From contig JAGREA010000058.1 in assembly GCA_020446745.1 (NCBI GenBank), forward strand, positions 1-32,334: a DNA stretch of 32,334 nt, given 5' to 3'. The DNA comes from Rhodobacterales bacterium. GTDB taxonomy: Bacteria; Pseudomonadota; Alphaproteobacteria; Rhodospirillales; JACKKN01. Positions 10,776 to 17,349 of this stretch are shown in pieces. How positions within the stretch are numbered: the stretch's first letter is position 1; the number at the start of each line of letters is the position of its first letter. Below the pieces are notes generated by a model, which was not told the origin of the DNA, ran no database searches, and worked only from the letters and a program-made list of their open reading frames with translations. Position numbers and translations under genes: made by a program.

Positions 10776-12830
10776 CTAGGCGGCGCGGACCCAGACCGCC
10801 GTGTCGTGGAAAGCCGCACCGGCGGTGGGCGGGATCGGGTCGGCCCCGATCAGCAGGTTGATGCCCACCCCCTCGGCGAAGGCGTCGTTGGGCCAGATGC
10901 TTTCCACCACGACCACCCCTTGTTGCTGACCACCCCTTAACATCACGTCAAGGACCAGTGATCCGCGCCCGTTGCCGATCCGCGCCCGGTCCCCGTCCCG
11001 CAGCCCCAGGGCGGCACCATCCTGTTGATTCAGCAGCAGTTTCGGTTTCCCCTCCTTGGCCACCGAGGTGGGCGTCTCGGTGAAGCTGGAATTGAGGAAC
11101 TGGTGGGCCGGGGCGGCGATCAGGCGGAACGGGTGATCGGCGTCGGCCGATTCGATGGCCGCGTAGTGATCCGGCAGGGCCGGCATGGCGTCCCCGGCCG
11201 CGCCCAGGGCGGCCCAGTCGGGGGCGAAATGGAAGCGCCCGTCCGGGTGGGCGAAGCCGTTCAGGTAGTGGGCGTCCTCGAACGGCGGGGCACAGTCGAG
11301 GCCGCCGGCCGCCAGCACCGCGTCGGCGCCGGGCCGGCCGGAGGCGGCCAGGGTGCGGTCGATGATCTCCCACGCCGACAGGCCGAAGCCCGGGTGCTCG
11401 GCCCCCAGGCGCGCCGCCAGGTCACGGATGACCGCGTGGTTGGACCGGGCCTCGCCCAGGGGCTCGATGACGGCGCGGGCCACCTGCAGGAAGGTGTGGC
11501 CGCCGGCCTGGTAGATGTCGTCATGCTCCAGGAAGGTGGTGGCCGGCAGCACCACGTCGGCCCATTGGGCCGTGTCGGTCATGAACTGCTCGTGCACGCA
11601 GACGAACAGGTCGTCGCGGGCGAAGCCCCGGTGCACCAGGCCCAGTTCCGGCGCCACCACCCGGGGGTTGGTGTTCTGGATCAGCATGGCCGTCACCGGC
11701 GGGCCGCCGCACAGGGCCGCCGCGTCGCCGGTGAGCACCCGGCCGATCTGCGACATGTCCAGCTCGCGCACCGCCGGGTCCAGGCGGTCCAGGCCCTCGA
11801 TCAGGGTGGTGTCCAGGCCGTAGAGTCCGCTGTTGGAGAACAGCGCCCCGCCGCCCTTGTGTTGCCAGGCCCCGGTGACCGCCGGCAAACAGGCCGCCGC
11901 GTGCATGTTGACGGCCCCGTTGCGCGAGCGGGAGAAGCCATAGCCCAGGCGCAGGAAGGCGTTCTTCGTGGCCCCGTAGGCGCGGGCGAAGGCGGTGATC
12001 TGGTCCTCGGACAGGCCGGTGATGGCCGCCGCCCAGGCCGGCGTGCGGGTCGCCAGGTGGGCTTCCAGGGCCTCGGGCACGTCGGTGTATTTGGCCAGGT
12101 AGTCCCGGTCGGCGAAACCCTCGGCGAACAGCACGTGCATGACGGCGCAGGCCAGGGCGCCGTCGGTGCCCGGGCGCAGGGCCAGGTGTTCGTCGGCGGT
12201 GCCCGCCGTGGCCGTGCGGTAGGGGTCGATGGCGATGATGCGCGCCCCCCGGGCCTTGCGGGCCTTCACCGCGTGGGTCATGGCCTGGACCTGGGTGGAG
12301 GCCGCGTTGCAGCCCCAGAACACGATCAAATCCGACTCCGCCATCTCGCGCGGGTCGATGCCCCGGTAGGCGCCGGTGCCGGCCACGTAGGCGTGCTTGG
12401 CCGCGTAGACGCAGATGGTCGGCTTCATGCGCGAATAGCCCAGGGCGTGGCGCAGGCGGTTGATGCCGTCGCGCTGCACCAGGCCCATGGTGCCGGCGTA
12501 GTAGTAGGGCCACACGGCCTGGGGCCCGTGGCGCTCGGCGGCCCGTTTGAAGGCGTCGGCCACCCGGTCCAGGGCCTCGTCCCACGACACGGGCTCGAAT
12601 CTCCCCTCCCCCTTGGCGCCGGTGCGGACCAGGGGTTGGGTCAGGCGGTCCGGATGGTGCACCCGTTCGGCATAGCGGCCCACCTTGGCGCAGACCACGC
12701 CGTCGGTGTAGGGATGCCCGGCCCGGCCGCGCACCCGGCCGATGGTGCGGGCGTCCAGGCGCTCCACGTCCAGGGCGCAGGTGCTGGGGCAGTCGTGGGG
12801 GCAGACGGAGGGAACGGTGGTGGGTGTCAT
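10776..12830 (-). CDS. Molybdopterin-dependent oxidoreductase with N-terminal 4Fe-4S site
   Basis: This 684-residue enzyme belongs to the DMSO-reductase/formate-dehydrogenase superfamily. The N-terminus has CPHDCPSTC and, 27 residues later, the fourth Cys in GVVCAK, which together bind a 4Fe-4S cluster. The molybdopterin domains follow (LIVFWGCNAASTQVQ, IIAIDPYRTATAGTADEH, LRPGTDGALACAVMH), and the C-terminal dinucleotide-binding domain contains LNQQDGAALGLRDGDRARI. There is no Tat signal, so the enzyme should be cytoplasmic. I could not assign the molybdenum ligand residue with confidence; no selenocysteine TGA is present in frame. The electron acceptor and substrate are unknown, and no partner subunit gene is adjacent. 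The ATG at 12830 lacks a clear ribosome site, and a TTG at 12863 is possible. Confidence 0.9.
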   Translation of the reverse strand: MTPTTVPSVCPHDCPSTCALDVERLDARTIGRVRGRAGHPYTDGVVCAKVGRYAERVHHPDRLTQPLVRTGAKGEGRFEPVSWDEALDRVADAFKRAAERHGPQAVWPYYYAGTMGLVQRDGINRLRHALGYSRMKPTICVYAAKHAYVAGTGAYRGIDPREMAESDLIVFWGCNAASTQVQAMTHAVKARKARGARIIAIDPYRTATAGTADEHLALRPGTDGALACAVMHVLFAEGFADRDYLAKYTDVPEALEAHLATRTPAWAAAITGLSEDQITAFARAYGATKNAFLRLGYGFSRSRNGAVNMHAAACLPAVTGAWQHKGGGALFSNSGLYGLDTTLIEGLDRLDPAVRELDMSQIGRVLTGDAAALCGGPPVTAMLIQNTNPRVVAPELGLVHRGFARDDLFVCVHEQFMTDTAQWADVVLPATTFLEHDDIYQAGGHTFLQVARAVIEPLGEARSNHAVIRDLAARLGAEHPGFGLSAWEIIDRTLAASGRPGADAVLAAGGLDCAPPFEDAHYLNGFAHPDGRFHFAPDWAALGAAGDAMPALPDHYAAIESADADHPFRLIAAPAHQFLNSSFTETPTSVAKEGKPKLLLNQQDGAALGLRDGDRARIGNGRGSLVLDVMLRGGQQQGVVVVESIWPNDAFAEGVGINLLIGADPIPPTAGAAFHDTAVWVRAA

Positions 12831-12949
12831 GGGGGCATGCCGTGAGGATTGACGGGTCGGCAAGGACCTTAGCCCCCGGCGCGGGGCCCGGCAACGGGCG
12901 ACGGGGCCGCCACCCCCGGGGGTTGTGGACAGGCCGGAACGGGGTGCCT

Positions 12950-13672
12950 ATGCTGGCCAGAACCACGATCGGTCGTGCCATGAAGATCCTTCCTGCCGCA
13001 TGCCTTGTTGTCCTGGTCCTGGCGTTGGCGGGCTGCCAGACCGCGGGCGTGGGTCCCGACCAGGCCACCACCTTCTTCAACGAGGTCGCCTACAGGTCCT
13101 CGCCCGGGGGCCATCCGGTCAGCCTGGCGGCCCGCACCACCGAAGCCTATCGCCAGGCCAAACTGCGGCGGTGGGAAAGCGACCTGGTGCTGCACCTGGG
13201 CGGCGCCGCGGTGCCCGACCTGCGGGCCCACGGCCGCCGGGTGATGGGGGACCTGGCCGCCCTGGCCGGCCTGGGCCTGACGGAAACGGACGACGCCGAA
13301 GCGGCCAACTTCGTGATCCTGTTCGAGGACCGGCAGCAGTTCCTGGCCGGCGTCGCCGAGCGGGCGTCGTGCTATGCCCACATCCGGGCGCGCGGCGGCG
13401 TCCTCCACCATGTGGAAATCCACGTGGGTCTGCGGAACGAGGGGCTGCTGAAGCACTGCCTGAGCCACGAGATCCTGCATGGTTTCGGCCTGGTGCACAC
13501 CAATGCCCTGCCCTCGGCCGTCAACTACGCCTATTGGGTGGACCTGCCCACCCGGTGGGACCGGCTGGCCGTGCGCACCCTTTACGACCGGCGCCTGACC
13601 GTGGACATGGATCGGATCGAGGGCCTGGCCATCGCCCATGACATCCTGACCGAAACCATGGACGACGACTGA
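12950..13672 (+). CDS. DUF2927-like lipoprotein with HExxHxxGxxH putative zinc-protease motif
   Basis: This 240-residue protein has a lipoprotein signal peptide ending in LVLALAGC, so the Cys is lipidated and the mature part is periplasmic. The body follows the DUF2927 pattern: RRWESDLVLHLGG, ANFVILFED, a cysteine segment RASCYAHI, the motif CLSHEILHGFGLVHTNALPS near residues 173-192, and TLYDRRLTVDM near the end. HEILHGFGLVH is a complete HExxHxxGxxH zinc site as in metzincin proteases; as I recall them, DUF2927 relatives usually lack the last His. ATG 12980 is an alternative start and gives a shorter signal peptide (MKILPAACLV). The next gene, 25 bases after this stop, encodes another lipoprotein. 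Confidence 0.8.
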   Translation: MLARTTIGRAMKILPAACLVVLVLALAGCQTAGVGPDQATTFFNEVAYRSSPGGHPVSLAARTTEAYRQAKLRRWESDLVLHLGGAAVPDLRAHGRRVMGDLAALAGLGLTETDDAEAANFVILFEDRQQFLAGVAERASCYAHIRARGGVLHHVEIHVGLRNEGLLKHCLSHEILHGFGLVHTNALPSAVNYAYWVDLPTRWDRLAVRTLYDRRLTVDMDRIEGLAIAHDILTETMDDD

Positions 13673-15120: not shown

Positions 15121-16221
15121 ATGACCCCCGACATCGACTGCCTGGTGATCGGCGCCGGCGTGGTCGGCCTGGCCGTGGCCCGCCGTTTGGCCCTGGCCGG
15201 GCGCGAGGTGGTGGTGCTGGAAGCGCAGGGCGCCATCGGCACCGGCATCAGCGCCCTCAACAGCGAGGTCATCCACGCCGGCATCTACTATCCCCCGGGC
15301 AGCCTGAAGGCCCGCCTGTGCGTCGCCGGCCGCCAGGCGCTGTACGCCTATTGCGCCGACCACGGCGTGCCCCACCGGCGCTGCGGCAAGCTGATCGTCG
15401 CCACCTCGGAAGGCCAGTTGGCGGCCCTGGATGACCTGGCCACCAAGGCCCGGGCCAACGGGGTGGACGACCTGGAAGCCCTGTCCGGCGCCCGGGCCCG
15501 GGCCCGGGAACCGGCCCTTCGGGCCCACGCCGCCCTGCTGTCGCCATCCACCGGCATCGTCGACAGCCACGCCCTGATGCTGGCCTACCAGGGCGACGCC
15601 GAGGCCCACGGCGCCATGGTGGCCCTGGGCAGCCCGGTGCTGGACGGCCAGGTGCTGGACGGCGGCTTCCGCCTGAACGTGGGCGGCGACAGCCCGGCCA
15701 CCGTCACCTGCCGCACCCTGGTCAACAGCGCCGGCCTGGGGGCCCAGGCCGTGGCCGGGGCCCTGGCCGGCCTGGACCCGGCCCGCGTGCCACCGCGACA
15801 CCTGGCCAAGGGCCACTACTTCGCCCTGACCGGCCGGGCGCCGTTCCGCCACCTGATCTATCCTGTGCCCGAGGCCGCCGGCCTGGGCGTGCATTTGACC
15901 CTGGACCTGGCCGGCCAGGCCCGCTTCGGCCCCGACGTGAAGTGGGTGACGGCCGAGGACTACGCCCCCGACCCGGACCGGGCCGAAGGCTTCTACACGG
16001 CCATCCGCACCTACTGGCCGGCCCTGCCCGACGGCGCCCTGCACCCGGACTACACGGGCATCCGGCCGAAGATCCAGGCCCCCGGCGAGCCGGCGGCCGA
16101 CTTCCTGATCCAGGGCCCGGCCGACCACGGGGTGCCGGGGCTGGTCAACCTGTTCGGCATCGAAAGCCCGGGCCTGACGGCCTCGCTGGCCATCGCCCAG
16201 GAAGTGGCGGCGGCGCTCTGA
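15121..16221 (+). CDS. LhgO-like FAD-dependent oxidoreductase (DAO family)
   Basis: This 366-residue flavoprotein has the FAD-binding motif [16 protein letters not shown] at residues 8-23 and the DAO fold. The segment [20 protein letters not shown] near residues 43-62, and [12 protein letters not shown] with [16 protein letters not shown] further on, are typical of the L-2-hydroxyglutarate oxidase/dehydrogenase group. The C-terminal [11 protein letters not shown] and [20 protein letters not shown] supply the closing FAD contacts. Its expected reaction is oxidation of L-2-hydroxyglutarate to 2-oxoglutarate, a metabolite-repair step, passing electrons to the quinone pool. At 366 residues it is shorter than E. 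coli LhgO (about 420), so a related hydroxyacid is also possible. No clear ribosome site precedes the ATG. Confidence 0.85.
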
Positions 16222-16260: not shown

Positions 16261-17349
16261 ATGATGGCGCGCCCGTTCCGTCTTGGCGTCCTGTGCCTGG
16301 CCCTGGCCGGATGGGTTTCGGTCGTCCACGCCCAGGCTCCGGGCCAGACCCGGGCCAACCTGCGCCCGGTGGAGGACGCCCCGGCGGGCCCCGCCGGCCC
16401 TGCCGAGCCGCTGCTGGACACCCGCGAGGCCATGCGCGGCCTGATCGAGCGCATCAGCCGCTACGCCAAGGGCCTGAAGCCGGACTTCATCGTCGCCGTG
16501 CAGGGCGGGCGCGAGATCCTGACCAAATCCGACGAGGAGGCGGCCGACAACCCGCCGCCGGCCAAGGCCTACCTGAAGTCCATCGATGCCATCCTGCTGG
16601 ACGGCCTGCGCTTTGGCCCCCGCGAGCTGGACGAGGAACCGCCCGAGGCCCGCACGGAAGCCCTGATGAAGGCCGCCGCCATCGCCAAGAACGCCGGCCT
16701 GACGGTGCTGACCCTGGATTACGCCAAGGAAACCAAGCACATCCTGGAAGCGCTCCGGGCCAACTTCAAGGACGGCTTCGTGCCCTTCGTGGGCCAGGCC
16801 CAGCCGGCCAACCTGAGCCGCATTCCCCGGGTCCCCTACCGCCCCTTCCGCGAGGACGCCCACAGCGTCATCTCCATGAAGGACGTGAAGAACTACCTGT
16901 ATCTGCGGGAAACCCAGGGGTTCGGGCGCGAGGACGAATTCGCCCTGAAGCTCCACGCCACCAATTTCGACCTGGTGATCGTCGACGTGTTCCACGGCCG
17001 CAAGCCCCTGAGCAAGCGGGCCGTGGACACCCTGCGCTACAAGCAGACCGGATCGCGGCGCCTGGTGCTGGCCTATGTGGATATCGGCTCGGCGGCCAGC
17101 TACCACTACTATTGGCAGGACGGCTGGCGGGAAGGCGCGCCGGCCTGGATCGGCGCCCCCCACCCCCGCGACCCCGACCGCTACTATGTGGAATTCTGGC
17201 GTCCGGAATGGCAGGCCATCCTGTTCGGCACGCCCACGTCCTACATCTACGGCACCTTCGCCCAGGGCTACGATGGCGTGCTGCTGGGCGGCCTGGACAG
17301 CCTGCGCTTCGCCGAGGGCGGCATGGAGGCCGTGTCCACCCGCCGCTGA
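16261..17349 (+). CDS. Secreted TM1410/GH114-like TIM-barrel protein with permuted domain order
   Basis: This 362-residue protein has a signal peptide with likely cleavage after SVVHA. Two blocks match the TM1410/endo-alpha-1,4-polygalactosaminidase-like family (COG2342), but in reversed order. Residues about 60-190 (GLIERISRYAKGLKPDFIVA, AILLDGLRFG, LTVLTLDYAKE, DGFVPFVGQA) look like the second half of the canonical barrel. Residues about 205-358 (VKNYLYLRETQGFG, FDLVIVDVFHG, LVLAYVDIGSAASYHYYW, YYVEFWRPEWQAIL, GYDGVLLGGLDSL) look like the first half. The usual GFDGVYLD motif is GYDGVLLG here, losing one acidic residue. Family members are thought to act on galactosamine-containing polysaccharide; the activity here is unproven. 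It lies 39 bases after the LhgO-like gene. Confidence 0.75.
   Translation: MMARPFRLGVLCLALAGWVSVVHAQAPGQTRANLRPVEDAPAGPAGPAEPLLDTREAMRGLIERISRYAKGLKPDFIVAVQGGREILTKSDEEAADNPPPAKAYLKSIDAILLDGLRFGPRELDEEPPEARTEALMKAAAIAKNAGLTVLTLDYAKETKHILEALRANFKDGFVPFVGQAQPANLSRIPRVPYRPFREDAHSVISMKDVKNYLYLRETQGFGREDEFALKLHATNFDLVIVDVFHGRKPLSKRAVDTLRYKQTGSRRLVLAYVDIGSAASYHYYWQDGWREGAPAWIGAPHPRDPDRYYVEFWRPEWQAILFGTPTSYIYGTFAQGYDGVLLGGLDSLRFAEGGMEAVSTRR

Follow-up and report, generated by a model that had tools for sequence, protein, structure and literature searches.

Glycoside hydrolase family GH191 (NCBIfam model TIGR01370, MJ1477/TM1410) is represented structurally by TM1410 of Thermotoga (2AAM, 9EUX and 9EUZ) and by Env-GH191 (9EP5), which cleaves Pel (PMC12054363). 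The catalytic residues of the Thermotoga enzyme, TmGH191, are D156 and E225, and the families GH114 (PF03537, Ega3) and GH166 (the PelA hydrolase domain) have the same barrel fold and catalytic layout (PMC12054363). The solved Thermotoga structure has its two halves in native order, as do GH114 and GH166. Natural circular permutation is rare in glycoside hydrolase barrels. A survey of fungal enzymes reportedly mentions polygalactosaminidase and permutation once each. Permuted precedents are the GH70 glucansucrases and GH13_19 MalS (PMC10223318), which are α-glucan enzymes from unrelated families that remain catalytic. A literature search that did not cover the analysis of the family's evolution by Naumoff and Stepuschenko (2011, cited in PMC12054363) found no report of circular permutation in GH114 or GH191.

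The protein described here, P0001, is very probably a circular permutant of the GH191/TM1410 barrel, judging by its sequence matches. Its gene occupies positions 16261–17349 of the forward strand of the analysed window, a 32,334-nucleotide stretch of contig JAGREA010000058.1, and encodes 362 residues plus stop (ATG at 16261, coding sequence 16261–17346, stop codon 17347–17349). By eye, residues 1–24 (16261–16332) look like a Sec signal peptide, ending in LALAGWVSVVHA and followed by QA (predicted cleavage between VHA and QA), which suggests that the protein is secreted or periplasmic. The native C-terminal half, containing α4 and β5–β8, comes first (residues 49–183, 16405–16809; half-profile match 49–181) and the native N-terminal half, β1–β4, second (residues 203–353, 16867–17319; half-profile match 203–353), with both assignments also supported by the matches to TM1410 and Env-GH191. 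Between them, residues 184–202 (16810–16866) form a new linker from the native β8 side to native β1. Native proteins have nothing equivalent separating their halves; the linker lies where those proteins have their termini, and is 17–27 residues long across the permuted family (median 20).

TIGR01370 matches P0001 in two stretches (8e-30). Against the genome, the same model aligns positions 16948–17349 to profile 59–188 (E 1e-24) and positions 16420–16800 to profile 185–305 (E 0.003), in swapped order, so that approximately residues 225–352 are equivalent to native β1–β4 and residues 53–187 to native α4–β8. A phmmer search with P0001 against solved structures recovered TM1410 (2aam, 9euz and 9eux) and 9ep5, and a profile of 80 homologues gave two significant swapped matches to each kind of target: residues 268–352 to 61–141 (3e-24) and 54–183 to 151–273 (2e-7) of TM1410 (9euz), and 227–348 to 51–162 (5e-10) and 43–179 to 166–287 (1e-11) of the active Env-GH191 (9ep5). 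The two 9ep5 pieces are three residues apart, indicating that the native chain runs straight through the site of the permuted chain's two termini. The swap of halves proposed by the first-pass annotation is thus borne out, and every motif block it quoted is present in the order it gave. The break lies, by sequence alignment, between native β4 and α4; the permuted chain begins with α4 and ends nineteen residues after the nucleophile position.

Reordering the protein gives the same picture. Against a native-order profile built from contiguous regions of twelve native-order proteins, the encoded order of P0001 yields two separate alignments (101.7 and 57.3 bits), whereas the rearrangement 200–362 plus 40–199, which had been predicted to score better, aligns in one span (profile 42–291) at 167.4 bits. 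A rotation scan in 20-residue steps peaks for cuts after residues 179–219 and drops on either side, and of the 109 permuted entries, which represent 97 distinct sequences, 107 score higher when reordered, with a median gain of 55.7 bits. The summed TIGR01370 score is nearly unchanged (103.9 bits encoded, 105.3 reordered) because hmmscan adds both pieces either way, so reordering is uninformative for that model; unlike its GH191 relatives, P0001 stays below the curated cut-off of 181.25 in either order. A collinear full-length alignment, which would have spoken against the permutation, was found with none of the family profiles tried. Of the earlier assignment to GH114/TM1410, the TM1410 part stands, as GH191/TIGR01370, and the GH114 label is rejected: PF03537 has no match at E 10, and the profile of homologues matches PelA only weakly. 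The Pfam candidates GGDEF_2 and DUF1152 were chance matches below cut-off.

The (β/α)8 fold of P0001 is likewise suggested by these matches, and the naming of strands and helices is taken from the fold description in the literature and the order of motifs rather than from a model of P0001. AlphaFold models made with six sequences were of low confidence (mean pLDDT 41.5 for P0001 and 35.2 for the core of the relative L005); in the front half of the P0001 model there is only a helix at 54–72 followed, in order, by strands at 77–80, 110–114, 148–155 and 174–179.

Within the order of the source, 80 of 100 genomes encode a homologue, and the full-length homologues have the collinear arrangement of P0001; five GTDB relatives (L001–L005) are 43–49% identical to it. 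A family-profile search of the class and phylum separated two clean topologies, proteins aligning to the permuted profile in one unbroken span and native proteins aligning in two swapped spans. The permuted form extends to further alphaproteobacterial groups outside the order, and in the sample of Pseudomonadota outside the Alphaproteobacteria every hit showing both halves was native. Native-order proteins are also found in Cereibacter, at a pel locus, and in Deinococcus, and TIGR01370 matches above cut-off in the control genomes of Thermotoga maritima and Methanocaldococcus jannaschii. Two fusobacterial proteins share the permutation, break and linker position of P0001: Cetobacterium somerae WP_240221495.1 (299 residues), which is annotated as endo alpha-1,4 polygalactosaminidase, has swapped matches to TM1410 (3e-20 and 4e-4) and ends nine residues after the nucleophile position, and an unannotated protein of Fusobacterium vincentii has 319 residues. 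Residues R59, N211, N235 and K261 hardly vary among the permuted proteins of the Alphaproteobacteria, which is not the case in native proteins, and R59 and N211 are common to the fusobacterial pair; these four residues may hold the new linker.

We located the catalytic positions through the alignment to 9euz, in which residues 130 and 199 have the spacing of 69 that separates D156 and E225, and so identified them as the acidic residues of the YLD and AVE(N) motifs. In P0001 the equivalent of the nucleophile D156 (β4) is G343 (codon 17287–17289) and that of the general acid/base E225 (β6) is D114 (codon 16600–16602), so both catalytic residues are replaced. The Asn of the β5 PQN motif is also replaced, by G82 (codon 16504–16506). 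The first-pass annotation had noticed the change of the acidic residue to Gly, and this holds, not as a local oddity but as part of a wider pattern: the Asp/Glu pair is intact in all 11 native proteins and in both fusobacterial permuted proteins, but in only 12 of 85 alphaproteobacterial permuted proteins, and the PQN Asn falls from 13/13 (native plus fusobacterial) to 31/85. At least one catalytic acid is missing in 47 of the 85. The columns conserved in native and fusobacterial proteins and lost in the alphaproteobacterial set include W304, S274, N301, E277, Q81, E114, N82, D343, D346 and R282, which, going by the motifs, would be positions on the catalytic face; W289, P294, W317, G336 and G339, from the same conserved columns, are kept at 98–100%, and P0001 shares the W/Y/P/G barrel signature with GH191. 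The dN/dS ratio is 0.09–0.28 for nine of the ten close pairs that are unsaturated, which suggests that the gene is in general maintained.

These observations lead us to favour, with moderate confidence, an account in which a secreted GH191 barrel was permuted once and then took on a non-hydrolytic envelope role in the Alphaproteobacteria. A secreted or periplasmic (β/α)8 barrel of the MJ1477/TM1410 type would have been cut in the β4–α4 loop just past the nucleophile, with the old C and N termini joined through a linker of about 20 residues. The fusobacterial forms, which retain the Asp/Glu pair, would probably remain hydrolases of Pel, a galactosamine polymer, whereas in the Alphaproteobacteria the permuted barrel would have been kept for another role, its fold under selection and its catalytic pair and sugar-site motifs mostly gone. 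With G343, D114 and G82, P0001 itself is most likely a non-hydrolytic barrel, retained as a structural envelope protein or one that binds polysaccharide or another envelope ligand. The alphaproteobacterial branch would then be a widely conserved secreted protein for which the automatic label 'putative glycoside hydrolase' is misleading. The remaining close pair, with a dN/dS of 0.81, and the low confidence of the fold models count against this account.

The most serious doubt concerns the 38 of 85 alphaproteobacterial permuted proteins that have acids at both catalytic positions, 14 of them with an E/D exchange, and whether these remain enzymes; part of the family may on this evidence still be hydrolytic. 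It is possible, though unlikely, that P0001 too is an active glycosidase whose site, re-tuned around D114 and other acids, acts on a different envelope polysaccharide. Besides those two-acid relatives, and the dozen with the exact pair, the near fixation of the aromatic residues W285, W289 and W317 is in keeping with such an activity. Retaining hydrolysis is, however, normally abolished once both catalytic residues are lost. P0001 has Gly at the nucleophile position, at this or the partner position many relatives carry Gly, Thr, Lys, Pro or Ala, and the PQN motif, the W304 loop and the β3 YxSIGE motif have been lost as well.

The single permutation event and its direction, from native to permuted, are suggested by the distribution of the two forms and by a tree. 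We take the native order to be ancestral because it is more widely distributed. In a quick, unrooted search over 98 rows of canonical-order concatenates, the native proteins form one side of a branch with a support of 80, and a single change between permuted and native topology suffices. The fusobacterial pair adjoins the native proteins in this tree rather than lying deep in the alphaproteobacterial set, as might be expected if the chain had been opened twice, independently, at the same loop in Fusobacteriota and in Alphaproteobacteria. We consider two such events improbable, since one change is enough on the tree and the break, the linker position, R59 and N211 are common to both forms; the functional part of the favoured account would be compatible with either number of events. 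The support of only 80 for the native branch, and the placement of L104, a long-branched alphaproteobacterial permuted row, beside the Fusobacteria and the native proteins, count against the favoured account. With descendants in two phyla, sites both intact and eroded, and solved native relatives, the effect of placing the termini beside the nucleophile is directly testable.

A Pel or galactosamine polymer hydrolase like GH191, merely permuted, is a very unlikely identity for P0001. It draws on the conserved Asp and Glu of the fusobacterial permuted proteins, on the activity of Env-GH191 on Pel (PMC12054363), and on the location of the Cetobacterium gene in a pel operon, with genes for a GAF-domain protein, a DUF2194 protein and a hypothetical protein behind it and then pelF and pelG. 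Against it stand the replacement of both catalytic residues in P0001 and the absence of PelG from all 100 genomes of the source order searched with the Pfam model, for which the control was positive in Thermotoga maritima, suggesting that in this lineage the permuted protein is not tied to Pel. A single-protein PelG search was set aside in favour of that model because its control missed a Cetobacterium record with an annotated pelG. That there is no permutation at all, and that the swapped order is an error of assembly or reading frame or P0001 comes from a remote collinear family with only the motifs in common, is hardly credible even with a single draft MAG contig as source and low-confidence AlphaFold models, given more than 90 homologues of the same order, 80 of 100 genomes with a homologue, the significant match of both swapped pieces to solved structures and the peak of the rotation scan at the predicted junction.

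Directly upstream of the P0001 gene, 39 bp before its ATG and on the same strand, is a gene for an FAD-dependent oxidoreductase of the DAO fold (15121–16221, forward strand; Pfam). Its nearest NCBIfam model is L-2-hydroxyglutarate oxidase, below cut-off, and 3dme is a solved relative. A homologue of this oxidoreductase lies upstream on the same strand at 61 of 86 loci, mostly within about 200 bp (63 of 88 if two duplicate window loci are added; one genome enters the count twice), and the P0001 gene is probably co-transcribed with this cytosolic FAD oxidoreductase. At permuted loci outside the source order no such upstream gene was found, and unlike P0001 the Cetobacterium protein is encoded without an adjoining FAD oxidoreductase; the absence outside the order indicates that the neighbour is not intrinsic to the family, and it weighs against the favoured account. 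We put forward only tentatively, at somewhat short of even chances, the fuller reading in which the whole clade is a maintained pseudo-glycosidase, derived by one permutation of a Pel-type galactosaminidase and loss of its site, with a new envelope function that is operon-linked to the L-2-hydroxyglutarate-oxidase-like flavoenzyme.

Several further features were observed at the loci compared. In Cereibacter azotoformans (L120:4064–5521), a gene close behind pelF and pelG encodes a native-order GH191 domain fused to a C-terminal region with many GGxGxDxL repeats of the calcium-binding type. Two adjacent superfamily genes in Deinococcus aquaticus (L121:1922–3732), annotated as endo alpha-1,4 polygalactosaminidase and as MJ1477/TM1410 family, overlap by a few bases. 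The Fusobacterium vincentii record (L119, NZ_CP084075.1) is a 2.1 Mb 'plasmid' with one annotated feature and looks like a mislabelled chromosome. In the window itself, a gene for a DUF2927 protein (12824–13672) lies a short way upstream, and just downstream of the P0001 gene (17447–17475) there is a 29-base repeat with an inverted core (CTGAGGAGCGCCGAAGGCGCGTCTCGAAG). This repeat has 24 copies in the genome at no more than two mismatches, compared with none for a control pattern, indicating that it belongs to an interspersed repeat family.
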